Positions 4,304 to 21,869 of a DNA stretch of 64,000 bases are shown piece after piece. The notes beneath the pieces are model-generated. The model did no database searches, was not told where the DNA came from, and saw only the letters and a program-made list of their open reading frames with translations. The translations under genes were made by a program, and so were the position numbers. Each line of letters begins with the position of its first letter. Position 1 is the stretch's first letter. Source of the stretch: Fimbriimonadaceae bacterium (GTDB lineage Bacteria > Armatimonadota > UBA10988); contig JADZEX010000018.1 in assembly GCA_020850355.1 (NCBI GenBank), positions 1-64,000 of the forward strand, in the 5' to 3' direction.

Positions 4304-6319
4304 ATGAGCCGGAGCTTGTTCCGGGCCGGTCTCATGGCCTGCCTGTTGGTCGGCGCCGCCGTGGCGCAGCCGATCCTGCTGGTGCAGGACGAGCGCGCGG
4401 AAGGCCTTTACGAGACGTACGTCCGCACCAGCATCCTGCGCCGGGCGCTGCACCGGGCCGGCTTGGAGCACGATGTGGTGCCCGCCGACCAGCTCGGCAG
4501 CCACAGCGCGCGGAGCGCCCTGCTGGCGGTGCTGCCCTCCAATCCCAGCCTGGCCGACCCGGCCGCGGATTGGCTGCGACGCTTCAGCGACGGCAATGGC
4601 CGGCTGATCGTCTGCCCGCCGGCGCCGCCGCAGTTGGCCAGCCTGCTGGGAGTCTTCGAACCCCGTCCGCTGGCGGCCGCGCCGGACCATCTGCTGGAAG
4701 CGGTGCAGTTCGACACCTCGCTGATTCCCGGGCTGCCGGCGACCTGGCGGCAGAGCAGTTGGACCTACCAGCCCTTCGCGGCCGATCCGACGGCCCAACT
4801 GCTCGGTCGCTGGGCTGGCGCCGACCCGCTGCTGAACGCCGCGCCAGTGGTCACGGCGACGCCGCGCGGGGCGTTCCTGGGCGCGGCTCTGCTGGGCGAC
4901 GACCGCGCCGCCGAGGCGCAGCTCTTCACCGCGCTGGCGACGCACTACTTCCCGCAGCTCTGGCACACCTGCCTGCCGCGGCTGCTGCACGACGCTGGCC
5001 GCGTCGGCGATGTCACCTCGCTCGGCGCGTTGCGCGATCTGGTCGAGCGGAGCAGCGCCCCGGCCGAACGCCGGCAGGCCGCATTGGTGGCGGTCGACGA
5101 CGCCGCGCAACGGGTCGAGCGCGCGCGGCGGATCTACGAGTACGGCAAGAAGCTCTCGGCACTGCCCCCCGGCAAGGTGCCGGCCAGCACGCCGGTCGAG
5201 CGCTACCTGCCCGCCGCCCAACTGATCTGGCAGGCGCAGACCTCAGCCGAGCAGGCCTACTATCTGGGGCAGACGGCCCGCGCTGGCGAGTTCCGCGGGG
5301 TCTGGCTGCAGCAACTGGGCGACCTCAAGGCCTGGGGCTGGGAACGGGTGATCCGCGAGCTGCAACGCCTGCGGGTGCAGGCGCTGTTCGTCTGTGTCGC
5401 CAACGGCGGGTACGCCAACTACCCCAGTCGGGTCTTGCCGCATGTCACGGCCGAGGGCCAGGACCCGCTGGCCGAGGCGCTCCGCTGGTGCCGCCAGGCG
5501 GGCATCGAGTGCCATGTCTGGATGATCAACAACTACATCCGCCCGCTGACGCCGGCGACGCACCTCGCCGAGTTGCAGGCCGCCGACCGGCTGCAGCGCA
5601 CGCGCGAGGGTCGGGTGCTACCCTGGCTGCGGCCGGCGCACCCCGCCAACGTCGCCCAACAGCTCGCCGTGGCGCGCGAAGTCCTGACCCGCTACGAGGT
5701 CGATGGGCTGCATCTCGACTACATCCGCTACAGCCCCGAGGGCGACTTCAGTGAGGCCGAGCGGCGGCAGTTCGAGACCGAGACCGGTCACCGCATCGAG
5801 CAGTGGCCGGCCGACATCGAGCGCGGCGGCACCTGGCGGGTGCAGTGGGGCGACTGGAAACGCGGCCAGGTCAACGCCGTGGTCGAGGGGCTGGCGGGCG
5901 TCGTCCGCGCGGTGCGGCCGCGCTGCAAGCTGTCCGCCGCGGTCTACCCGATCTGGGACGACGCGCGCTGGGAAGTGGCCCAGGACCCCGCCTGGTGGGC
6001 GCAGCACGGCTGGGTCGACTTCCTGACGCCGATGAACTACCACACCGACGACAGCACCTTCTACCGCTTCTTGAAGGTCCAGGCCCGCGCCGCGGGCGAC
6101 CGCGTGCCGCTCTACCCGGGCCTCGCCTCGTTCCGCCACGAGTCGCCAGCCGACACGATCAGCCAGATCCGCCGCCTGCGGGCGATGGATATTCCGGGCT
6201 ATGTGCTGTTCCACCTCGACCGCCGGCTGCTCAGCGAGTGGCTGCCCGCGCTGGCCAGCGGTCTCGCGGCGCCCGATGCCTGGCTGGGGCCGGCGCCGCC
6301 GTGGCAGGCGCCGCGCTGA
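4304..6319 (+). CDS. Secreted GHL10-type glycoside hydrolase-like protein
   Basis: A 671-residue exported protein. Residues 1-21 form a signal peptide ending in AVA. The N-terminal 320 residues contain an unassigned alpha/beta region. From about residue 325 (EFRGVWLQ) begins a TIM-barrel glycoside-hydrolase-like domain of the GHL10/DUF187 kind, with the diagnostic DGLHLDYIRY near 466 and FLTPMNYHTD further on. Members of this family are thought to cut polysaccharide or peptidoglycan-like glycans, but the substrate here is unknown. The start is the ATG at 4304, which opens the signal peptide and follows AAGGAG in the upstream gene. It is coupled to the aldolase with a 4-base gap. Confidence 0.8.
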   Translation: MSRSLFRAGLMACLLVGAAVAQPILLVQDERAEGLYETYVRTSILRRALHRAGLEHDVVPADQLGSHSARSALLAVLPSNPSLADPAADWLRRFSDGNGRLIVCPPAPPQLASLLGVFEPRPLAAAPDHLLEAVQFDTSLIPGLPATWRQSSWTYQPFAADPTAQLLGRWAGADPLLNAAPVVTATPRGAFLGAALLGDDRAAEAQLFTALATHYFPQLWHTCLPRLLHDAGRVGDVTSLGALRDLVERSSAPAERRQAALVAVDDAAQRVERARRIYEYGKKLSALPPGKVPASTPVERYLPAAQLIWQAQTSAEQAYYLGQTARAGEFRGVWLQQLGDLKAWGWERVIRELQRLRVQALFVCVANGGYANYPSRVLPHVTAEGQDPLAEALRWCRQAGIECHVWMINNYIRPLTPATHLAELQAADRLQRTREGRVLPWLRPAHPANVAQQLAVAREVLTRYEVDGLHLDYIRYSPEGDFSEAERRQFETETGHRIEQWPADIERGGTWRVQWGDWKRGQVNAVVEGLAGVVRAVRPRCKLSAAVYPIWDDARWEVAQDPAWWAQHGWVDFLTPMNYHTDDSTFYRFLKVQARAAGDRVPLYPGLASFRHESPADTISQIRRLRAMDIPGYVLFHLDRRLLSEWLPALASGLAAPDAWLGPAPPWQAPR

Positions 6320-11853: not shown

Positions 11854-12093
11854 CTACGCCGGCCGCGCCGTGGCCAGCAGGGCGGCCGCCAGTGCCAGGA
11901 TTAGGCCCAGGCTGGCGGTCAGCGCACCAATCGCCGCGGCGCCCGCCAACCGCTGGCGCAGCGCCTCGGCCAGCCGCCCGGTCCAGCGCGGTGGTCCGTC
12001 GGCGAGCCCGAACCGTACGGCACCGCAGGCCACGCAGCGCCGGGCGCCACGGCTGAGAGCCAGGCCGCAGCAGGGGCAGACGGGGGTGCTCAT
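11854..12093 (-). CDS. Zinc-ribbon membrane protein (paralog 1)
   Basis: A 79-residue protein with a CPCC...CVAC ribbon at residues 6-23, GAVRFG directly after it, and one long hydrophobic segment (about 50-76). Its ATG overlaps the stop of the Lgt-like gene (ATGA), so the two are translationally coupled. Such single-ribbon, single-hairpin proteins often act as small membrane adaptors, but nothing here defines a partner. Function unknown. Confidence 0.7.
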   Translation of the reverse strand: MSTPVCPCCGLALSRGARRCVACGAVRFGLADGPPRWTGRLAEALRQRLAGAAAIGALTASLGLILALAAALLATARPA

Positions 12094-12806
12094 GGGATGG
12101 GCCCTCCCACTGCTTCAGAGCGCCCAGCGGCCTGGATTCGTTCCCGCCGCCACCAGATCGCCGCGGCGGCCATCAGCGCCAGGCAGGCCCACTGCCCCGC
12201 CGTCGGCCAGCCGGCCCCGCCACCCTGGTCGCGGAACGCCTCGATCACCGCCCGGCCGGCGCCGTAGGTCAGCAGGTAGACCCGGAAGCGGTCCCCCTCG
12301 CGCGGCCAGGGGCGGTACAGCAACGGCAGCAGCGCCAGGCAGAGCAGCAGGCTGTAGACCTGTGTCGGATGGCGCCAGGCGCCGTGCTGCCAGATCGCCC
12401 AAGGCAAGTCGCAGGGTCGACCGAAGCAGCAGCCTTGGAGCAGGCAGCCGACCCGCCCGACCGCCTCGCCCGCGGCCAGCGCCGGCGCAAACAGGTTGCC
12501 CGTCGAGCGCCGCAGGCCGAGGTAGCGCTTGGTCAGCTCGACCGCCAGCCAGCCACCCACTATCCCGCCGAGCACCGTCCGCCCGCCGGCCCGCGGGTCC
12601 AGCAGCAGGCTCGGGTCGGTCGCCAGCAGGCCGGGTTGGACCACCAGCCAGTGCGCCAGCCGTGCTCCTAGCAGGCCGCCCCAGAGGCCCGCCAGAGCGA
12701 CCCAACCGACCCCGCGGGTGGCCATCCGCCGCTGCCGCGCCTCGCGCCAGAGCAACAGCCCGGCGACCACGTAGCCGGCCGCGGTGCAGCCTTCGCCGGC
12801 GCTCAC
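12090..12806 (-). CDS. Divergent prolipoprotein diacylglyceryl transferase (Lgt)-like membrane protein
   Basis: A 238-residue polytopic protein with the Lgt family core: GRTVLGGIVGGWLAVEL, then GRVGCLLQGCCFGRP, CDLPWAIW, and HPTQVYS. True Lgt moves diacylglycerol from phosphatidylglycerol to the lipobox cysteine. The conserved Arg of the signature is present (GR), but the usual His of the HGG motif is Leu, and the Asn and Glu after GR are replaced by Cys-containing sequence. Canonical activity is therefore doubtful. It overlaps the radical SAM gene by four bases (ATGA), which suggests the two work together on a lipid substrate. That role is inferred. Confidence 0.75.
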   Translation of the reverse strand: MSAGEGCTAAGYVVAGLLLWREARQRRMATRGVGWVALAGLWGGLLGARLAHWLVVQPGLLATDPSLLLDPRAGGRTVLGGIVGGWLAVELTKRYLGLRRSTGNLFAPALAAGEAVGRVGCLLQGCCFGRPCDLPWAIWQHGAWRHPTQVYSLLLCLALLPLLYRPWPREGDRFRVYLLTYGAGRAVIEAFRDQGGGAGWPTAGQWACLALMAAAAIWWRRERIQAAGRSEAVGGPIP

Positions 12807-14311
12807 GGCAGCCCATCCGTGCCGTCGGCAAAGAGCCAGCGCCAGCAGAACGAGAAGCGCCGCGGGTCGTCCTCAAAGGTGCCGCTGTGAACGCAACACT
12901 GCCGCAGGCGGTGCTCGTGGAAGGTGTGCGCGTCCATGAACATCTTGACGGTCACCCGCACCGTGCGCTCGGCCAGCCGCTCCAGCTCGCCGGCCCCGCG
13001 GACGCGAGCCCAGAGGCCGCCGAGCCGGTTGACCAGCCCCGGCACGCAGTCGCAAAGCTGCGCCACGTCGCGGCACAGCTCCGGCGTCGAGGACCGCAAC
13101 TGCTCCGAGAACACCCGCTGCAGCGCACCGCTGCGGACCAGCTCCACAACCGGCTCGCGCAACTGGTCGAAGGTGATGGTGTTGCCAATCAGGTGCAGCC
13201 AGCGACGCAGTTCGTCGCGCCCGACCAGCGCGGGGAGCGACTTCCAGGTGTCGTCGGCCAGCCGCACCAGGTAGCTCAGGTCGCAGCAGTCGGGGTGTGA
13301 GCAGGGCAGGGCCAGGAAGTCGTCAGCGCGGACCTGCCCGGATGTCTGCTCCTCGATCCGCCGCAAGACCCCGGTCGGCGTCAGCCGGTCGCGGGGATCG
13401 AACCCGGCCTGGCGCCCCGACCCGAAGACCGGCTGATAGGCCACCCCGGCGACATGCGGCGTGCCCAACGCCAGCCGTAAGATGGCGCCGACCTGCTGGT
13501 CGTTGATGCCCTTCGCCAGCGACGCCACCAGGGTCACGAAGACGCCGGCCTCGTCGAGCCGCTGCACGGCGCGCAGCTTCTCGGCCTGCAGCTCCTCGCC
13601 CCGCAGCGCCGCGGCGCCCGCGCCGTCGTACTGCAGGTACACCTCGACCCGCTCGCGGTGCCGGCGCAGGACGTCCAGGAGGGCGTCATCGCGCGCGATG
13701 CGGCGGCCGTTAGTGTTCAGCATCACCCGCGTCACTGGCAGGTCGCAGAGCGCTCGCAGAATGTCCGGCAGGTCACCCCGCACGGTCGGCTCGCCGCCCG
13801 ACAGCATCACGACACCGAGCCGGCCGCCCTCCCGCTGGATCGTCGCCTGCACCGTCCGCAGTATCTCGGCCCGGGTCGGCCGTTCGTCGGCGGGCACCGC
13901 ACTCCCCGGCGGCAGCGCCGTGGCGTAGCAGGTGGGACAGGCCAGGTTGCAGCGCTGCGTGATGTTGAGCACCAGCGTGCAGGTGTGCTGGCCGTGCGAG
14001 ACCGGCAGCCCGGCGGCGTAGCCGGCCGGAAACGGCGCCGTGTTGGTGGGCCGGTCGGGGGTGAAGCTGAGTGTCGGCGTGCGCCAGCCCTGCCGCGCTT
14101 CCCAGAGCGTGGCGTCCTCTTCGTAGAGCGACTCGCTCTCGCCGTGGACCGGGCACCAGCGGCGCAGCCAGATGGCCCCGTCGCGGCGGGCCAGCAGACC
14201 GTCGCACCAGACGGCGTCGGCGGCTGGCGGCGGGCCGGCGGCGAAGCAGGCCGGGCAGACCGTGCGGGTGAAGTTCTCGATCCGATAGTCGCGCGGCAGC
14301 CCAGCCCGCAT
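12803..14311 (-). CDS. Radical SAM protein of the tetraether lipid synthase (Tes/MJ0619-like) type
   Basis: A 502-residue protein with the multi-cluster layout of Tes-like radical SAM enzymes. An N-terminal ribbon is formed by CPAC and CPVHG. GLPVSHGQHTC leads into the radical SAM CxxxCxxC loop (CNLACPTC), followed by SGGEPT. A later LPCSHPDCC and a C-terminal CCVHSG...SFCW supply extra cluster ligands. Archaeal Tes joins lipid chains by C-C bonds; bacterial relatives have been linked to membrane-spanning lipids, but the family is broad, so the reaction is open. The ATG at 14311 is preferred over GTG 14314 because GAGGAG is better spaced. It is six bases after the MoeZ-like gene and overlaps the Lgt-like gene. 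Confidence 0.75.
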   Translation of the reverse strand: MRAGLPRDYRIENFTRTVCPACFAAGPPPAADAVWCDGLLARRDGAIWLRRWCPVHGESESLYEEDATLWEARQGWRTPTLSFTPDRPTNTAPFPAGYAAGLPVSHGQHTCTLVLNITQRCNLACPTCYATALPPGSAVPADERPTRAEILRTVQATIQREGGRLGVVMLSGGEPTVRGDLPDILRALCDLPVTRVMLNTNGRRIARDDALLDVLRRHRERVEVYLQYDGAGAAALRGEELQAEKLRAVQRLDEAGVFVTLVASLAKGINDQQVGAILRLALGTPHVAGVAYQPVFGSGRQAGFDPRDRLTPTGVLRRIEEQTSGQVRADDFLALPCSHPDCCDLSYLVRLADDTWKSLPALVGRDELRRWLHLIGNTITFDQLREPVVELVRSGALQRVFSEQLRSSTPELCRDVAQLCDCVPGLVNRLGGLWARVRGAGELERLAERTVRVTVKMFMDAHTFHEHRLRQCCVHSGTFEDDPRRFSFCWRWLFADGTDGLP

Positions 14312-14320
14312 CACGGCTCC

Positions 14321-15481
14321 TCAGTAACGCGGCACCTGCGGATCGATCTGCTGCGCCCAGGCCTCGATGCCGCCGGCCAGCGATTGCACCTGCTCGTAGC
14401 CGGCGGCGCGCAGCCGCTCGAGCGCCCGCATCGAGCGGACGCCGGCGTGGCAGTAAGTCACCACCAGCCGGTCGCGGGGGATCCGGTCGAGGTGTGCGGT
14501 CAGCTCGCCGAGCGGCGCCAGCAGCGCGCCGCCGATCCGGCAGAGGTCCCACTCCCAGGTCTCGCGGACGTCCACCAGGCAGCACTCGGCCCCGGCCGCC
14601 AGCTTCGCCGCCAGGTCGGCCGGGCTGATCTCCAGCGACCGCGGACTCGCCTCCGGCGCGGCCGCGCTGCCGTTGCAGAACTGGTCGTAGTCGATCAGCT
14701 CGCGGACGGTCGGCGCGTCGCCACACAGCGGGCAGGCCGGGTCGCGGTCGTAGCGGAACTCCAACACCTCGCCGGCCAGCACGTCGAAGGCCAGCATCCG
14801 GCCGACCAGCAACTCGATGTTGGCGGTGCCGGCCCGGCGCAGGATCCACTTGATCGCCTCGGCCGCCTGCCAACTGCCGACGATGCCTGGCAGGACGCCC
14901 AACACACCGGCCTCGGCGCAGGAGGGCACACTCCCCGGGGGCGGCGGCGCGGGGAAGCGGCAGCGGTAGCAGGGCCCGCCGGCGGTGGTTTCGTAGACCG
15001 TCACCTGGCCCTCGAAGCGGTAGATGCTGCCATCGACGCAAGGCCGTCCGGCGAGGTGACAGGCGTCGTTGAGCAGGTAGCGGGTCGGGAAGTTGTCGCA
15101 GCCGTTGAGCACCAGGTCGTAGGCGCCGACCAGCTCCAGGGCGTTCTCACGCCGCAGCCAGCAGTCGTGCGGCACGACGGTGACGTGCGGGTTGATCTCG
15201 GCCAGCGTGTCGACCGCGGCGGCCAGCTTCGGCCGGCCGACATCGCCCTCACGGAACAGCAGTTGGCGTTGCAGGTTGCTGGGATCGACCCGGTCGTGGT
15301 CGACCAGGCCCAGGGTGCCGACACCCGCGGCGGCGAGGTAGAGCGCGGCCGGCGCGCCCAGCCCGCCGGCCCCGACCAGCAGCACTTTCGCCGCGCCCAA
15401 CGCCGCCTGGCCGGCTGGGCCGACCTCGGGCAGCAGCAGGTGCCGGCGGTAACGCTGCGCCTGGGCGGCGGTCAGGCTCAT
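14321..15481 (-). CDS. moeZ: MoeZ-type sulfur-carrier adenylyltransferase with rhodanese domain
   Basis: A 386-residue E1-like enzyme fused to a rhodanese domain. It should adenylate a ubiquitin-like sulfur carrier (MoaD or ThiS type) and pass sulfur to it for molybdopterin, thiamine or cysteine synthesis. GAGGLG at 37-42 binds ATP, LVDHDRVDPSNLQRQ is the family signature, and CYRC (about 171) with CPLC (about 249) bind zinc. The rhodanese active site is CHAGVRS near 344. No carrier protein is encoded in the window. It overlaps the ccsA-like gene by four bases. Confidence 0.88.
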   Translation of the reverse strand: MSLTAAQAQRYRRHLLLPEVGPAGQAALGAAKVLLVGAGGLGAPAALYLAAAGVGTLGLVDHDRVDPSNLQRQLLFREGDVGRPKLAAAVDTLAEINPHVTVVPHDCWLRRENALELVGAYDLVLNGCDNFPTRYLLNDACHLAGRPCVDGSIYRFEGQVTVYETTAGGPCYRCRFPAPPPPGSVPSCAEAGVLGVLPGIVGSWQAAEAIKWILRRAGTANIELLVGRMLAFDVLAGEVLEFRYDRDPACPLCGDAPTVRELIDYDQFCNGSAAAPEASPRSLEISPADLAAKLAAGAECCLVDVRETWEWDLCRIGGALLAPLGELTAHLDRIPRDRLVVTYCHAGVRSMRALERLRAAGYEQVQSLAGGIEAWAQQIDPQVPRY

Positions 15482-16302
15482 GGGTTGGCGACTCCCGGCG
15501 GCGGCGCCGTCTCGAAGGGCAGGCGGTGGCGCGCCAGTTGGAGGTTGGCCAGCACCAGCACAAAGCCCACCACCAGGAACAGGTGCAGCCGCGTGCCCCG
15601 CCAGCGGGGCACATCGCGCACGAACAGATAGCTGGCGTAGACGCCCCAGATCATCACGCTGAGGTAGACCTTCAGGTCGGCCGGTTGGTGGAGGCTGAAC
15701 AGGAAGGCTAGGCCGACGCCGAGCCCCAGCGTGAAGAAGCAGAGCCCAAACGCGGCGGCGCGGTGGGCCACCCGCTCGGCGGTGTGCAGCGGCGGCAGCG
15801 AGGCCAGCTCGGCAACCCGCTTGCGCTTCAGCAGCCAGTCACCCCGCAGGTAGGCAGCGGCCGCACAGAAGGCGATCCCGAAACAGGCGTAGGCCAGCAG
15901 CGTTAGGGCGATGTGCCAGACGAACCACGGGTTCTCGACCATCCGCACGGTGACCCGCGGCTCGAACACCGTCAGCAACACCAGCAAGAAGACCACCGGC
16001 GCCAGAAAGGCCCCCAACGCCGGGCGTTCGGTGCGCCGTTCGAGGACCAGCAGGCCGATCACGATCAGGAGCACCAGCACAAAGGTGATGTTGGCCCACT
16101 GCCCGAAGACGACTTCACTCCCCTTGCGAGCGGTGTGCGCCAGCAGCCCGAGGCCCTGCAGCCCGGCCCCGAGCAGCAGCCCCCAGTGGGCGTAACGGGT
16201 CGACCGCGAGTCCGGCCGGAGCAGCCGTTGCGGGTAGAGCACCGCGGCCGCCAGGTAGGCTAGCAGCGCGGCGCTCTCGGCGATGTAGCAGACTGTGGTC
16301 AT
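15478..16302 (-). CDS. CcsA/HemX-type cytochrome c assembly membrane protein
   Basis: A 274-residue integral membrane protein with about eight hydrophobic segments, of the cytochrome c assembly (CcsA/HemX/CcmC) superfamily. The C-terminal LSVMIWGVYASYLFVR region fits HemX-type members. Members handle heme, and HemX proteins are thought to influence glutamyl-tRNA reductase levels. Here it is coupled to hemA by an ATGA overlap, as in many bacterial hem operons. The tryptophan-rich WWD segment of CcmC and CcmF is not obvious. The start is the ATG at 16302 inside the hemA stop; the longer frame upstream overlaps hemA. Confidence 0.8.
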   Translation of the reverse strand: MTTVCYIAESAALLAYLAAAVLYPQRLLRPDSRSTRYAHWGLLLGAGLQGLGLLAHTARKGSEVVFGQWANITFVLVLLIVIGLLVLERRTERPALGAFLAPVVFLLVLLTVFEPRVTVRMVENPWFVWHIALTLLAYACFGIAFCAAAAYLRGDWLLKRKRVAELASLPPLHTAERVAHRAAAFGLCFFTLGLGVGLAFLFSLHQPADLKVYLSVMIWGVYASYLFVRDVPRWRGTRLHLFLVVGFVLVLANLQLARHRLPFETAPPPGVANP

Positions 16303-17612
16303 CGCTCCGCCCCCTCCCCACCGAGGCCAAACAGACGCCGCACCCAGTGGGCGTGGTCCTCCCGTTGCGGCGTCGCGGCCTGCCGCCGAACCTCGGTCAA
16401 CGGGCCGTGGAGCAGCTTGTTGGAGAACGACCGCATCATCTGCCGCACCAGCTCCTGCTGCCGCTCGTCGAGCTCCGGCAGACGCCGCAGCCAGCGCTCG
16501 GTCTCGGCATCGCGCAACCCTTCGACACGCTCCCGCAGCTCGACGATCAGTTCGGTCGACCCACGCGAGTGCAACCACTCCATGAACCGCGCGGTCTCGG
16601 CGTCGACCAGCGTCTCGACCTTGCCAACTTCGCGGGCCCGCTCTTCACGATAGCGCTCGGCGACGCCCTGTAAGTCGTCAATGTCGAAGAGATAGACGTT
16701 CGGCAGGTCGGCGACCGCCGCCTCGACATCGCGCGGGACGGCGATGTCGACGATGAACAGGGGATTGCCCCGCCGCGCCGCGAGCGGTGCCCGGAGCTTC
16801 TCGACGGTCAGAATCGGATGCGGCGCCGCCGACGAGCTGACCACGATGTCGGTCTGGCTGAGCTCCGCCTCGAAGTCGTCGAAGCGCACCGCGCGGCCCT
16901 GGTAGCGGCTGGCCAGCTCCACCGCCCGCTGGTGGGTGCGGTTGGCGACGACCACCGAGGCGACGCCCTGATCGACCAGATGCGTCAGCGTCTGCTCGCT
17001 CATCTCGCCCGCGCCGACCACCAGCGCACGGCGGCCCGTCAGGTCACCGAAGACCGTCTTGGCCAGATCCACCGCGGCTGAGCTGATCGACACCGCACCA
17101 CGGTGGATGCCGGTCTCGGTGCGCGCCACTTTGCCGATGTGCAGCCCGCGCTGGAACAGCTCCTGGAGGTAGGTGCGCGCTGTGCCGGCCTCCGCGGCGG
17201 CCTGGTGGGCGGCCTTCACCTGAGCCAGGATCTGACCTTCGCCGAGCACCATGCTGTCGAGCCCGGCGGCGACCCGAAACAGGTGGCGCGCGGCCTGTTC
17301 GTCGCAATGGTGGTACAGATGCGGCCGCAGGGCGGTCGGATCGAGGTGGTGGAAAGCGGTCAGGAACCCGACCATCGCCTCGGCTCCGGCGACCGGGTCG
17401 GGCGACACCGCGTACAGCTCGGCGCGGTTGCAGGTGCTCAAGATGGCAGCCTCGGCGACCGGCTCCTGGCCCTGCAGCTCGGCCAGCGCGTCGGGCAGGC
17501 TGGCGGCGCTGAAGGCCAGCGTCTCGCGCACTTCGACCGGCGCCGTGCGGTGATTCAGCCCGGCGGCCACCAGGTGCAGGCGCTGGCCGTCGCGGTCCGC
17601 CGCGATGCTCAT
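16299..17612 (-). CDS. hemA: Glutamyl-tRNA reductase
   Basis: Reduces glutamyl-tRNA to glutamate-1-semialdehyde with NADPH, the first committed step of C5 tetrapyrrole synthesis. At 437 residues it is full length. The nucleophile is Cys61 in STCNRAELYA, the GEGQILAQVK motif lies near 125, and the NADPH-binding GAGEM follows near 194. The C-terminal dimerisation helices are complete. The ATG at 17612 has GAGGAAGC ahead of it and overlaps the Met8-like gene. Its placement between siroheme and cytochrome genes makes a dedicated heme-supply operon. Confidence 0.96.
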   Translation of the reverse strand: MSIAADRDGQRLHLVAAGLNHRTAPVEVRETLAFSAASLPDALAELQGQEPVAEAAILSTCNRAELYAVSPDPVAGAEAMVGFLTAFHHLDPTALRPHLYHHCDEQAARHLFRVAAGLDSMVLGEGQILAQVKAAHQAAAEAGTARTYLQELFQRGLHIGKVARTETGIHRGAVSISSAAVDLAKTVFGDLTGRRALVVGAGEMSEQTLTHLVDQGVASVVVANRTHQRAVELASRYQGRAVRFDDFEAELSQTDIVVSSSAAPHPILTVEKLRAPLAARRGNPLFIVDIAVPRDVEAAVADLPNVYLFDIDDLQGVAERYREERAREVGKVETLVDAETARFMEWLHSRGSTELIVELRERVEGLRDAETERWLRRLPELDERQQELVRQMMRSFSNKLLHGPLTEVRRQAATPQREDHAHWVRRLFGLGGEGAER

Positions 17613-18241
17613 GCTTCCTCCATCGCCGCCCGCGCGGCCGCCCGCGCGGCGACCGCCTCCCCGGCTGCCAGCGCGTCCCGCGCGGCCGACTGCCAGACCC
17701 GCTCGTAGGCCGCCCGGCGGGCCGCTTCGTCGGCGTAACGCGCCACAATCTCCGGCCGCAGCTCGCCCAATAGCTCGACCAGCTCCCCGACCTCCGGCGG
17801 CACCGCCGCCTCCACGGCCTGCCGCAGCTTCTTGGCCGCGAACGGGCTGGCGCCCGCGGTGCCCAGGCCGATCAGCACCGGCCCCCGCTGCACCGCCGCC
17901 AGGGCCTGACAACTGCCCGCCTCGGGCGGCGCGGCGACATTGCAGAAGATCCGCTGCGCGGCAGCCGCCGCGGCCACGGCCGCGTTGACGTCCAACCGGT
18001 TGGTGGCGGCCACCACCAGCCAGGCGGCCGCTTCGTCGCCCGGCTCCCAGCCCCGGGCCAGCCAGCTCAGCCGGCCCGCCGCGGCCCACTCCGCCAGCCG
18101 CGCGGTGACCTCCGGCGCCACCAGCAGCAGGTCGGCCGCGGCCGCCAGCAGGGCGCCGGCCTTCCGCTCGCCGACCGCTCCGCCGCCGACCAGCAAGACC
18201 CGCTTGCCCGCCAGGTCGAGGCTCACCGGCCAGCCGCTCAT
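17609..18241 (-). CDS. Precorrin-2 dehydrogenase / sirohydrochlorin ferrochelatase-like (Met8/CysG N-domain)
   Basis: A 210-residue protein matching the N-terminal dehydrogenase domain of siroheme synthase. GGGAVGERKA (19-28) is the NAD-binding motif. NRLDVN, FCNVA and GTAGASPFAAKKLRQ are family signatures. It should oxidise precorrin-2 to sirohydrochlorin and may insert iron. The methyltransferase half of CysG is absent, as is normal for stand-alone members. It overlaps both ccmF and hemA by four bases. In organisms that make heme through siroheme this gene would feed heme directly; whether that is the case here cannot be told from the window. Confidence 0.85.
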   Translation of the reverse strand: MSGWPVSLDLAGKRVLLVGGGAVGERKAGALLAAAADLLLVAPEVTARLAEWAAAGRLSWLARGWEPGDEAAAWLVVAATNRLDVNAAVAAAAAAQRIFCNVAAPPEAGSCQALAAVQRGPVLIGLGTAGASPFAAKKLRQAVEAAVPPEVGELVELLGELRPEIVARYADEAARRAAYERVWQSAARDALAAGEAVAARAAARAAMEEA

Positions 18242-20580
18242 CCGCGCGGTCGCTCCCGGCGCAGCGCCAGCCGCACCGCCAGCCGGGCCCGCCGCGCCGC
18301 GGCCAGGGCGCCGCCCAGCATCGTCAGCCAGCAGCCCAGCCAGACCACCGTCATGCCCGGCTTGATGGTGGTCTGCAGCACCGCCGTCTCCGGCCGCGCG
18401 CTGCCCACCCCGGTCAGGTGCAAGAGCATCACGCGATCCCCGGAGCCGTCCTCCTTCGGCGGCATGTCCACCACCGTGACCTGCCCGCCGCCGGGCAGCT
18501 CCGCCGGCTCGCTGGCGACCTCGCCACCGACCACCGCGAACCAGGCCGTGACCGGCGTGGTCTGGCCGCCGCGGCTGACCTGCAACCGGATGCCGACCCG
18601 GATCCGATCCGCGGTCTGTTCGTGGGCCCCCAGATCGAACCCCGCAAAGCTGATCTTGAGGTCGGCCACGCTGACCGCCCGGCCGCGCTCCAGGACCGCC
18701 TGCAACGGCGCGCTGCCGGCCTGGATCTCGCCCGGCTCGAGGTACAGGTCGTGGCTCCAGAGCTTCAGGATGGCGGGATTCCGCAGCGGCTGACCAGCGG
18801 TCCCCGGCCGCAGCAGCGCGGCGAGCTGATGCTGCTGCTCGCCGTGCCTCGCCAGCAGCCGCACCGCGGCGTTCTCGCCGACCGGCTGCAGCCCCTGGTA
18901 GGTCAGTTCGTACCCGACGAAGCGCAGCGGCTGACCGAGCGGCAGCGAGAGGATCGTCTTGGTCTCAAAGACCGAAGAGACCACGGCACCGATCACCAAC
19001 AGCATGAACCCGCAGTGCGCCAGGTGCGTCCCCAGCCGCGCCACCTCGCGCCGTCGCAGGTCGCCAAGCAGGGCCTGCAGGTTGGCCAGCACCGCGGTCG
19101 CGCAGAGTGTCAGCAGCAGCCACCAGGCCCAGGCGAGCGGCCGCGCGGTGGCCGGCAGCCACTCCGGCGTCGCCGCCCGGGCGCGCAGAAAGCCCCCCAG
19201 CACCGCCGCGCTGACGCCGCCGCAGACCCCGGCCAGCAGCAGCGACCAGCGCAGCGCCGTGAGCAGCCGCTCCTGCCGCACGCTGCGCCAGGTGGTGCTC
19301 ATGACAATCGTCAGCAGCACCGCCAGCAGCATCGCGTAGGGCGTGTGGACGCTGTTGTAGAAGCTGGGTTGCAGCGCCGTCTTCTTGAAGGGCGCGCTGA
19401 GCAGCGGCCAACTGTTGCCAACCAGCACAACCACCCCGGACCCGGCCAGCAGCACCGTCACCAGGTGCAGCAGCCGCAGCCGGCTGACCGGCTCGGCGAC
19501 GATCACCGCTCCCGGCTGCCGCCGCCCGGCGCGCCACCAGAGCAGCCCGAAGGCCAGCAGCGGGACCGTCGCGAAGACCAACAGCGCGCGGTTGAAGGCG
19601 TCAGAGAGCGCCACGAAGCTATGCACCGAGAAGTCGCTCAGGACACCGGAGCGGTTGAGGTAGCTGCCGAAGGTGACGGAGCAGCAGGCCGCCGCGGCGA
19701 GCGCCAGGTTGAGCTGCCGCGCGGCCCCGCGCCCGGCCTGCTGCAGCAGCAACCCGTGGAACAACGCGCCGGCAAACAACCAGGGCACCAGCGACGAGTT
19801 CTCGACGGGATCCCAGGCCCAGTAGCCGCCCCAGCCGAGCGTCTCGTAGGCCCAGTAGCCGCCCAGGATCAGACCGGTCCCGAGGATCGTCCAGGCCAGC
19901 AACGTCCAGCCCTGGGCGCGCCAGGTCCAGCCGTCCAGGTCTCCGCGCAACAGACCGGCCATCGCAAAGGCGTAGGGCACCCCCATGGCGCAGAAGCCGA
20001 GGAACAAGATCGGCGGGTGGATCGCCATCCACGGGTTCTGCAGCAGCGGATTGAGCCCCTGCCCTTCCGGCGGCAGCCCCCCGAACTGCGTCTGGATGAC
20101 TTTCAGCTCGAGCGCGGTGAACGCCTCGAGGTGGACCGGCGCCAACGGCGGTTGGACGATCACCAGCCCCAGCACCAGCAGTTGCAGGCAGCCCCAGACC
20201 AGCAGCACGCTGGCTTCCCACTCCCGCGAGCGCGCCACCAAGGCCGCGCCGAGCAGGCCGCCGAATAGTGCCCAGAGCACGAAGGTGCCCTCCTGGCCGG
20301 CCCAGAAGGTGCTCACCAGGTAGAGGAAGGGCAGGTCGGTGCTGGAGTGGCGGAAGATGTAGTCGAGGTCGAAGCGGTGGGTCAGGATGCCGTGCAGCAA
20401 GACCGCCGCCAGGATCTCGACCCCGCCGAGGTGCAGGTAGAAACAGCAGCGCGCCGCGCGCAGCAGCCCCGGTCGCGCCTCGCCGCGGCGGTCGGCGCGG
20501 TGCACCAGGCCGTACAGCAGCGTGGCGGTCGCCAGCAACACCGCCGCCGCGGCAGGCAAGCAGCGGGCGCTGGCGATCAT
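18238..20580 (-). CDS. ccmF: Cytochrome c heme lyase subunit CcmF
   Basis: A 780-residue polytopic protein that, with CcmE, transfers heme to apocytochrome c on the outer face of the membrane. The tryptophan-rich WWD segment GGYWAWDPVENSSLVPW lies near residues 245-265, with about 15 hydrophobic segments. The C-terminal third contains a larger hydrophilic loop followed by a last membrane span. The ATG at 20580 overlaps the ccmE stop. The thiol-handling partners CcmG and CcmH are not in this cluster. Confidence 0.95.
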   Translation of the reverse strand: MIASARCLPAAAAVLLATATLLYGLVHRADRRGEARPGLLRAARCCFYLHLGGVEILAAVLLHGILTHRFDLDYIFRHSSTDLPFLYLVSTFWAGQEGTFVLWALFGGLLGAALVARSREWEASVLLVWGCLQLLVLGLVIVQPPLAPVHLEAFTALELKVIQTQFGGLPPEGQGLNPLLQNPWMAIHPPILFLGFCAMGVPYAFAMAGLLRGDLDGWTWRAQGWTLLAWTILGTGLILGGYWAYETLGWGGYWAWDPVENSSLVPWLFAGALFHGLLLQQAGRGAARQLNLALAAAACCSVTFGSYLNRSGVLSDFSVHSFVALSDAFNRALLVFATVPLLAFGLLWWRAGRRQPGAVIVAEPVSRLRLLHLVTVLLAGSGVVVLVGNSWPLLSAPFKKTALQPSFYNSVHTPYAMLLAVLLTIVMSTTWRSVRQERLLTALRWSLLLAGVCGGVSAAVLGGFLRARAATPEWLPATARPLAWAWWLLLTLCATAVLANLQALLGDLRRREVARLGTHLAHCGFMLLVIGAVVSSVFETKTILSLPLGQPLRFVGYELTYQGLQPVGENAAVRLLARHGEQQHQLAALLRPGTAGQPLRNPAILKLWSHDLYLEPGEIQAGSAPLQAVLERGRAVSVADLKISFAGFDLGAHEQTADRIRVGIRLQVSRGGQTTPVTAWFAVVGGEVASEPAELPGGGQVTVVDMPPKEDGSGDRVMLLHLTGVGSARPETAVLQTTIKPGMTVVWLGCWLTMLGGALAAARRARLAVRLALRRERPRG

Positions 20581-20996
20581 CCGCTGCCCCCGCCGCCGGC
20601 CAGCTTCTGCTGCTCCTTCGACGGGCACTTCACCAGCAGTTGCCGGGCCTCGAAGACCCCGTTCTGGTAGACCCCAATCGAGATCACCTGGCTGGCCTGA
20701 TCGAAGTTCGACGGCTTCACGGTCCGCGCCCGCACGACCATCCGCTGCGAGCGGTCCTCGACGCCCAGGACCCCGAACTCGAAGACTCCAGCGGCGGTGT
20801 CGTAGCGTTGCGGGTACGACTTATCAATCACTCCCGGCACCTGCAGCAGTTGTCCGCTGCGCCGGGCGACCTCCGCGAAGTCGTGGCTGTAGGTGGCCAT
20901 CGAGTTCTTGAAACTGTCGAGGCCCAGCCAGCCGAGGCCGCCGATCACGACCAGGCCGACCCACCAGCGGCGCGAGCGGCGCGCTTCAGTTTGCAT
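20577..20996 (-). CDS. ccmE: Heme chaperone CcmE, cysteine type
   Basis: A 139-residue periplasmic heme chaperone with one N-terminal membrane anchor (about 11-27) and an OB-fold. The heme-binding position, usually His in a HxxxY motif, is Cys124 in LVKCPSK. That is the Cys-type CcmE known from some archaea and deltaproteobacteria, but those carry CxxxY, and here the fourth following residue is Glu, not Tyr. The C-terminus ends in a short Gly-rich tail. It overlaps ccmF by four bases and the small CcmD-like gene by 11. Confidence 0.9.
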   Translation of the reverse strand: MQTEARRSRRWWVGLVVIGGLGWLGLDSFKNSMATYSHDFAEVARRSGQLLQVPGVIDKSYPQRYDTAAGVFEFGVLGVEDRSQRMVVRARTVKPSNFDQASQVISIGVYQNGVFEARQLLVKCPSKEQQKLAGGGGSG

Positions 20997-21183
20997 CCTG
21001 CTCCTCGCCCACCCGCACCCGCTCGACCGTGACCGTCGCCCCGGCCGCCAACGGGCGGGGCGCGCGGAACTCGTCCACGGCCTGCCGCAGCCGCTGGTTG
21101 ATCACCGCCAGATAGGCGATCAGGCCCAGACTGCCGACCAACGCCACGATCCCACCGACGACCGCGCCTTCGGGCATCACCAT
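20986..21183 (-). CDS. ccmD: Small CcmD-like membrane protein
   Basis: A 65-residue protein with one hydrophobic segment (about 7-26) and a charged C-terminal tail. It sits exactly where ccmD is found, between ccmC and ccmE, with overlaps on both sides. CcmD is a short single-span protein that helps release holo-CcmE from CcmABC. Sequence conservation in CcmD is low, so the call rests mainly on size, topology and position. The start may be the ATG at 21183 or the one at 21177, which forms TGATG with the ccmC stop. Confidence 0.65.
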   Translation of the reverse strand: MVMPEGAVVGGIVALVGSLGLIAYLAVINQRLRQAVDEFRAPRPLAAGATVTVERVRVGEEQDAN

Positions 21184-21869
21184 CGCTCCCGCGCCGCCAG
21201 ACGCAGACTGGCAGCCGCCACTTGCAAGCGCATCAGCACGCCCCAGACCCCGATCAGGCCAGCGAAGTTGGCGAACATCAGCCGCCAGTGGACCGCGTCG
21301 AAGGGCGCCTGCTCGGGATGCAGGCTGGCTGGCACCGTGCGCGGAAAGACCGCCACCAGCCAGACCATCGGGGCCACTGCCAGCAGTAAGTATGCGGCGC
21401 CGAAACGCGCCCGTAACGCCTCATCTTCGCCCAGCGCCTGCCGCAGCACCAGGTAGGCCGCGTAGATCAGCAGCACGAAGAAGATGCTGGTCTGCCGCGG
21501 GTCCCAGTTCCAGGCTTTGCCCCACTGCTGCTGCGCGAAGATCATCCCGGTGAGCGTCGCCAGGACGCACAGCACCAGCCCGCTCTCGGCCGCGGCGTAA
21601 GCGGCGGCGTCGCAGATCAGGCGGCGACTGGTGAGATAGCGCACGCCGTGCCAGGCGGCCGCCATGAACGAGAGGCAGCCGCACCAGGCCAGCGGGACGT
21701 GGAAGAAGACGGCGCGGTAGCCCTCGATGTCCTGGAACCCGCGGCCGTCCGGCATCGGCACGGCGAAGCCGCAGGCGGTACAGCCCAGGAGCCAGACCCC
21801 GAGCAGCACCAGGGCAGGCAGCGGCAGCGGCCGCAGCCCGGCGGGCAACGGCGTAGGTGTAGCGTTCAT
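21177..21869 (-). CDS. ccmC: Heme handling protein CcmC
   Basis: A 230-residue protein with six hydrophobic segments, needed to load heme on CcmE. The WWD motif WGKAWNWDPRQTS is at 116-128. The flanking heme-ligand histidines are His57 in FFHVPLAW and a second one in AVHWRLM near 196. The ATG at 21869 overlaps the ccmB stop (ATGA). An open frame continues upstream but it is only a shadow of ccmB. Confidence 0.95.
   Translation of the reverse strand: MNATPTPLPAGLRPLPLPALVLLGVWLLGCTACGFAVPMPDGRGFQDIEGYRAVFFHVPLAWCGCLSFMAAAWHGVRYLTSRRLICDAAAYAAAESGLVLCVLATLTGMIFAQQQWGKAWNWDPRQTSIFFVLLIYAAYLVLRQALGEDEALRARFGAAYLLLAVAPMVWLVAVFPRTVPASLHPEQAPFDAVHWRLMFANFAGLIGVWGVLMRLQVAAASLRLAARERW

Follow-up and report, generated by a model that had tools for sequence, protein, structure and literature searches.

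Gene organization of the locus

The window, i.e. the whole stretch of 64,000 nucleotides that was analysed, carries on its minus strand a radical SAM gene related to tetraether lipid synthase (Tes) and TrsS, together with a gene for a divergent paralogue of Lgt. Both genes and the overlap of the stop of the first with the start of the second had been pointed out in an earlier sequence-only reading of this DNA. We find both open reading frames (Table 1) as well as the overlap, which consists of the 4 bp GTGA (junction sequence CTGCCGTGAGC). The ATG of the radical SAM gene is preceded by GAGGAG, and a GTG at position 14314 represents a possible alternative start.

Table 1. Genes of the radical SAM/Lgt locus, with positions in the window.
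Feature	Position	Strand	Remarks
TM/Zn-ribbon protein, 181 aa	10952-11497	-	Cys inside TM helices; candidate operon member
Zn-ribbon + two-TM protein, 108 aa	11499-11825	-	Cys inside TM helix
Zn-ribbon + one-TM protein, 79 aa	11854-12093	-	start overlaps Lgt stop
Divergent Lgt paralogue	12090-12806	-	238 aa, GTG start
Tes/TrsS-like radical SAM protein	12803-14311	-	502 aa from ATG 14311
MoeB/ThiF-rhodanese protein	14321-15481	-	directly upstream of radical SAM gene, same strand

The real unit extends beyond the radical SAM/Lgt pair. The Lgt stop overlaps the start of the 79-aa gene by ATGA (12090-12093), and this gene, whose product matched no NCBIfam family, probably belongs to the operon. The 108-aa protein is a candidate counterpart, by pattern and not by homology, of a small membrane protein with a cysteine in its last TM helix (“TM-Cys protein”) that is found in related loci.

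On the upstream side the MoeB/ThiF-rhodanese protein was considered as a sulfur donor. This idea was dropped, as the gene is not conserved beside the cassettes of relatives, and it is not counted as a component of the system. Further upstream on the same strand (16299-21500) lie genes that read as HemA glutamyl-tRNA reductase and as CcsB- and CcmF/CcmC-like cytochrome c biogenesis proteins.

Conservation of the radical SAM/Lgt pair

Scanning a single genome of each species yielded 234 relatives, and the best 80 of the 234 were fetched. These 80 come from Armatimonadota, Eremiobacterota and Actinomycetota, other phyla being under-sampled. An Lgt-like open reading frame occurs within a few kb of the radical SAM gene in 74 out of the 80 fetched loci, and several of the others are short contigs. 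The order of the two genes varies, with Lgt being located downstream in the window's group and in Microbacterium, and upstream in Eremiobacterota and most Actinomycetota.

We further compared 151 genomes of the phylum to which the window belongs, and about 31 of them encode a Tes-like protein. Three groups can be distinguished by identity to the window protein (A, 50-60%; B, 32-36%; C, 31-35%), group C having the highest Tes and TrsS scores, and each of the groups includes members with a linked Lgt. Twenty-five out of the 31 genomes with the radical SAM gene contain a second Lgt compared to 9 out of 120 others (Fisher 1e-15). The pairwise distances of Lgt and radical SAM proteins are correlated (Mantel r 0.79, n=44 loci), with shared host descent contributing to this value. 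These results support a functional coupling of the radical SAM enzyme and the Lgt paralogue that is conserved in at least three phyla. The conservation across genomes, which the sequence-only reading had named as a check, is thereby borne out, and the pair is not confined to one genome.

The radical SAM enzyme is a relative of Tes

The radical SAM protein matched the Pfam families Radical_SAM (E 2.2e-18) and Zn_ribbon_HMPTM (4e-10). In NCBIfam it reached 227 bits for TrsS, a radical SAM (seleno)protein (NF045646, equivalog cut-off 490 bits), and 195 bits for Tes (GDGT-MAS, cut-off 450 bits). The Tes scores of its relatives range from 142 to 291 bits, and TrsS scored higher than Tes in every member scanned. 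The closest solved structure by sequence is Tes (7tol, E 2.2e-41), which is also the sole whole-length relative in the PDB. A profile of the family matched Tes of Methanocaldococcus jannaschii over the whole length (310 bits, approximately 23% identity); this protein, MJ0619, with its sequence taken from the PDB alignment, served as the only archaeal Tes reference.

Foldseek was used to compare the window protein, as modelled by AF2 (pLDDT 83.5, pTM 0.88), to known structures. Except for the low confidence of residues 377-440, the model corresponds to 7TOM over the whole length including the C-terminal lipid/auxiliary-cluster domain (E 2.8e-32, TM 0.75/0.76). The structures ranked after 7TOM and 7TOL, among them the peptide maturases SkfB and SuiB, fit the core only (TM 0.36).

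The motifs reported from the sequence alone were all recovered, namely CNLACPTC of the radical SAM core, LPCSHPDCC and the C-terminal cysteines (RQCCVH...FC), and a rubredoxin-like CPAC...CPVH is also present. C20, C23, C54 and H57 of the rubredoxin-like site (CX2C...CX2H) are invariant in the alignment, as are C122, C126 and C129 of the radical SAM motif (CX3CX2C). The window enzyme shares with Tes (MJ0619; 7TOL, 7TOM) both of these sites and the C-terminal CC..H..C, in addition to the whole-length homology and the fold. It differs from Tes by the extra LPCSHPxC, by its bacterial origin and by its pairing with Lgt and small TM proteins. The N-terminal auxiliary [4Fe4S] cluster of Tes is bound by three cysteines and a His. 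The cysteines of this cluster (C73/C77/C80, within NGCPYDCGLC) are missing in the window protein, in groups A and B, and in the Eremiobacterota and Actinomycetota members; they are kept only in group C. According to the alignment Met439 of Tes is replaced by Lys and Tyr459 by Ser in the window protein. Both residues are fully conserved in 1000 archaeal Tes homologues, and M439A was nonetheless active (PMC9433317).

Because the scores remain below the cut-offs and the protein lacks Met439, Tyr459 and the cysteines of the N-terminal cluster, the window enzyme is not Tes itself but a related protein that shares the Tes architecture. Its earlier assignment to the tetraether lipid synthase group therefore holds for fold and architecture, and does not hold for membership in Tes proper.

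In the tree the window's group joins the Eremiobacterota and Actinomycetota sequences (100/100) and group B is separate. Group C is found with Tes, TrsS-like and other sequences (99/99), on long branches and with an uncertain root. The phylogeny, which had likewise been suggested as a check, places the radical SAM protein apart from the TrsS-like clades and in no clade of known non-lipid enzymes. The window enzyme belongs to the same radical SAM subfamily as TrsS, which is its top NCBIfam score, whereas the TrsS-like relatives belong to a different clade, have a methyltransferase neighbour and have no Lgt nearby in the loci examined.

Several of the TrsS-like genes of Actinomycetota at loci L159-L163 and L181 adjoin methyltransferase, mercury-transport-like, CcdA or disulfide-oxidoreductase genes, and a search of these loci found no Lgt near the TrsS-like gene.

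The established bacterial membrane-spanning lipid synthase is Mss, which couples acyl chains and was modelled as resembling Tes (PMC13274423). Any likeness to the window enzyme is drawn from this published description.

The Lgt paralogue

The Lgt-like protein matched Pfam LGT over most of its length (E 2.6e-32) and stayed under the NCBIfam cut-offs for lgt (TIGR00544, 59 vs. 118.9 bits; NF000778, 85 vs. 334 bits). Its signature is GRVGCLLQGCCFG in place of GRLGNFINGELWG. Aligned to E. coli Lgt (5AZB/5AZC), it keeps the equivalents of R143, R239, Y235 and E243 as well as RHPxQxY, and differs by the replacement of E151 and N146 by Cys and of H103 by Leu. N146 and E151 are both Cys in Armatimonadota and Eremiobacterota; the Actinomycetota form is GRxGCxLTExPG. 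The previous statement that key Lgt residues are lacking is thus correct for E151, N146 and H103, but not for R143, R239, Y235 and E243.

In E. coli Lgt the mutants R143A/E/K and E151A/Q and every H103 mutant tested were inactive, and the role proposed for R143 and R239 is activation of the phosphatidylglycerol C3-O bond (PMC4728403). The genome of the window also encodes a canonical Lgt on another contig (G000:C6:70962-71699, locus L143), which has a Phe at the position of the essential His103. Since the canonical Lgt of the same host does without H103 as well, the loss of this residue is not telling, and only the loss of E151 is. From the kept and replaced residues we infer that the donor site is at least partly preserved and the acceptor side altered. 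As E151 is absent and its loss inactivates the E. coli enzyme, the paralogue may not transfer diacylglycerol at all. All partner Lgts group together in the Lgt tree, in a single clade that is separate from the canonical Lgts (100/99).

Two families of small membrane proteins

The TM-Cys protein is a small TM protein, either Pro-rich or of the Zn-ribbon type, whose last TM helix has a near-invariant cysteine close to its end. Out of 94 candidates (74 loci), 85 contain a cysteine within their last 38 residues; the Cys frequency of 0.85% per residue outside this region would lead one to expect about 28%. Twenty-two Actinomycetota sequences with a mean identity of 33% have only G62, G76 and C78 invariant, and another 16 sequences end with GLGxGLMIGWALxSxxSAGxCTGxNPxxY. 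A profile of this latter form finds the TM-Cys protein beside the radical SAM gene in 11 out of 11 host genomes tested. Searched against 247 genomes, it matched in G152 and G210, both times directly beside the radical SAM gene, and it gave one marginal match (G185, E 8e-4) among about 240 genomes without the radical SAM gene.

Tandem copies occur in the group C loci L116 and L142 and on the Mycobacterium avium plasmid pS2b, which is typed as mobilizable (PLSDB). The cassette on pS2b (L179, NZ_CP076860.1, 5117-8437) comprises the radical SAM gene, the Lgt gene and two TM-Cys genes in tandem; the RefSeq names in M. avium are “prolipoprotein diacylglyceryl transferase family protein”, “hypothetical protein” and “radical SAM protein”. 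In group A, including the window, 13 out of 16 open reading frames show a corresponding feature, namely a Zn-ribbon protein with a cysteine within a TM helix, which is a pattern and not homology. The possibility that the tandem Zn-ribbon/TM genes are chance neighbours was dropped for Actinomycetota and group C because the C-terminal cysteine is conserved there; for group A the case remains one of pattern.

The second family, the two-Cys protein, was detected by an iterative search and comprises membrane proteins of 85-105 aa located beside the radical SAM gene in 62 out of the 80 fetched loci and in many Armatimonadota loci. When 22 sequences from three phyla were aligned, two cysteines and one glycine proved invariant, and a second alignment gave the same picture. 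A larger alignment lists only the second cysteine as invariant, which we ascribe to a misalignment by one residue. The protein has no Pfam or NCBIfam family, and Foldseek returned no solved fold alike (best E 1.3; model pLDDT 72, pTM 0.45).

Among the 151 genomes the two-Cys protein is present in 18 out of 23 with a group A or B radical SAM protein compared to 3 out of 128 others (Fisher 4e-16), and G143, one of these three, has an enzyme fragment where a contig ends. In 247 Actinomycetota genomes the two-Cys protein is present in 4 out of 5 with a close radical SAM relative, and 1 out of 242 others gave a weak match. The protein is missing from some genomes that possess the pair (G015, G029, G043) and from most mycobacteria sampled. 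In the genome of the window its gene is unlinked to the pair (G000:C60:14084-14317; L149, local coordinates approximately 6076-6318). There it follows an open reading frame for a TAT/lipoprotein-like Rieske-type protein and modABC-like genes, as read from the sequence.

Proposed function and alternative readings

The cassette, with the radical SAM/Lgt pair as its core, consists of the Tes-fold radical SAM enzyme, the Lgt paralogue, the TM-Cys protein and, usually, the two-Cys protein; this composition and the co-occurrence of the genes are shown by the genomes compared. We tentatively propose that it is a dedicated cassette for the modification of membrane lipids or lipoproteins, in which the Lgt paralogue lipidates the TM-Cys protein and the radical SAM enzyme acts on an acyl chain. 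This is a possible reading, albeit one that we still regard as somewhat doubtful. The diacylglyceryl group transferred by the Lgt paralogue would go to the TM cysteine of this small protein in place of a lipobox cysteine. The cytosolic radical SAM enzyme would take a hydrogen from an unactivated carbon of the acyl chain and then cross-link or otherwise modify the chain, either after or before the diacylglyceryl transfer. The two-Cys protein might use its cysteines for docking or reducing the radical SAM enzyme. A positive-inside reading of both small proteins suggests that the latter cysteines face the cytosol, the compartment of the radical SAM enzyme, and that the cysteine of the TM-Cys protein is in the outer half of its helix, at the level to which the active site of Lgt opens.

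The kept equivalents of R143 and R239, which are essential in E. coli (PMC4728403), are consistent with such a lipidation. So are the fold of Tes, an enzyme that binds lipid tails (PMC9433317), and the ICMT/PEMT-like methyltransferase of the group C cassettes. Several points argue against it. The radical SAM enzyme is cytosolic and the active site of Lgt faces outward, so that the two would act on opposite sides of the membrane. The absence of Met439, Tyr459 and the N-terminal cluster cysteines and the top rank of TrsS among the named families would also speak against a Tes-like role, and the candidate TM-Cys protein of the window's group A is assigned by pattern alone.

Extended to a whole pathway, the lipidation scheme would lead to a cross-linked lipid-protein element of the membrane: in Armatimonadota, Eremiobacterota and some Actinomycetota including mycobacteria, the Lgt paralogue would lipidate an intramembrane cysteine of a dedicated small TM protein, and the Tes-fold enzyme would form a C-C or C-S link on the acyl chain. 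An undescribed pathway of precisely this kind we consider somewhat unlikely. A lipid-protein product is at least as likely as a free lipid, because two families of small membrane proteins belong to the unit.

The radical SAM enzyme could instead be a peptide maturase that forms a thioether or C-C cross-link at the cysteine of the TM-Cys protein, with the Lgt paralogue lipidating or anchoring the product in a RiPP-like manner. The dedicated and sometimes tandem short proteins with a C-terminal Cys motif adjoining the enzyme would fit this, as would the RiPP maturases SkfB and SuiB in the second tier of fold matches. We judge it unlikely, as the whole-length match is Tes and the peptide maturases reach less than half its TM score, as a conserved cysteine inside a TM helix is unlike known RiPP cores, and as the Pfam scan found no SPASM or RRE domain.

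In the model that follows the sequence-only reading, the radical SAM enzyme would couple the tails of free phospholipids to membrane-spanning or related lipids, with the Lgt-like protein remodelling the head group of phosphatidylglycerol. It can draw on the fold and C-terminal domain of Tes, on the kept arginines that activate phosphatidylglycerol, and on the unproven proposal of bacterial Tes homologues for brGDGT synthesis (PMC8941075, PMC11868695). It is rather improbable in our opinion, given that residues fully conserved in archaeal Tes are missing (PMC9433317), that the established bacterial enzyme is Mss, and that the dedicated small TM proteins with an invariant cysteine are left unexplained. 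The broader idea of a lipid modification agrees with the coupling of a Tes-family radical SAM enzyme to Lgt, with the Tes fold and with an ICMT/PEMT-like gene in some cassettes. Nothing points to ether or membrane-spanning lipids specifically, and that the pair makes membrane-spanning lipids is possible but unsupported.

In a non-lipid role the radical SAM enzyme would, like TrsS, carry out sulfur, selenium or metal chemistry, and the Lgt and small proteins would form a membrane module for handling or anchoring partners that contain Cys. Such a role would agree with the higher TrsS scores, the methyltransferase, CcdA and disulfide-oxidoreductase neighbours of TrsS-like relatives and the abundance of Cys and Zn-ribbon proteins in the cassettes, but is quite improbable in view of a TrsS score of less than half the cut-off, the separate clades and the constant link to an Lgt paralogue that is absent beside the TrsS-like members examined.

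Each of the enzyme families is already known, and bacterial homologues of Tes have been noted before (PMC8941075, PMC11868695). A description of the cassette or of its small proteins was not found in the open-access literature, and there is a real chance that the cassette represents a new pathway. Bacterial Tes relatives are numerous and without proven function, and they are used to infer the makers of membrane-spanning lipids, on which climate proxies are based. For one large branch of these relatives the cassette provides a consistent set of partners, i.e. an Lgt paralogue and two new protein families. As this set is found in culturable hosts, which include Microbacterium, Nocardioides, Knoellia and Nocardia, the question of function is directly testable. 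A Tes-like match in a genome should not be taken as evidence of tetraether-type lipids.

Further genes in related cassettes

In group C cassettes an ICMT/PEMT-like membrane methyltransferase gene lies between the radical SAM and Lgt genes. Such a gene is located beside the radical SAM gene at loci L114-L118 and L142. It is likewise beside the radical SAM gene in two group A relatives that belong to the family of the window and are without the two-Cys protein (L011, 4935-5549; L121, 3573-4184). In a relative from Abditibacteriaceae (L004, 7596-9427, identical to L120) an open reading frame for an AAA/SMC-like ATPase and a second open reading frame lie between radical SAM and Lgt; judging by their sequences, the two look like an inserted defence-type module.
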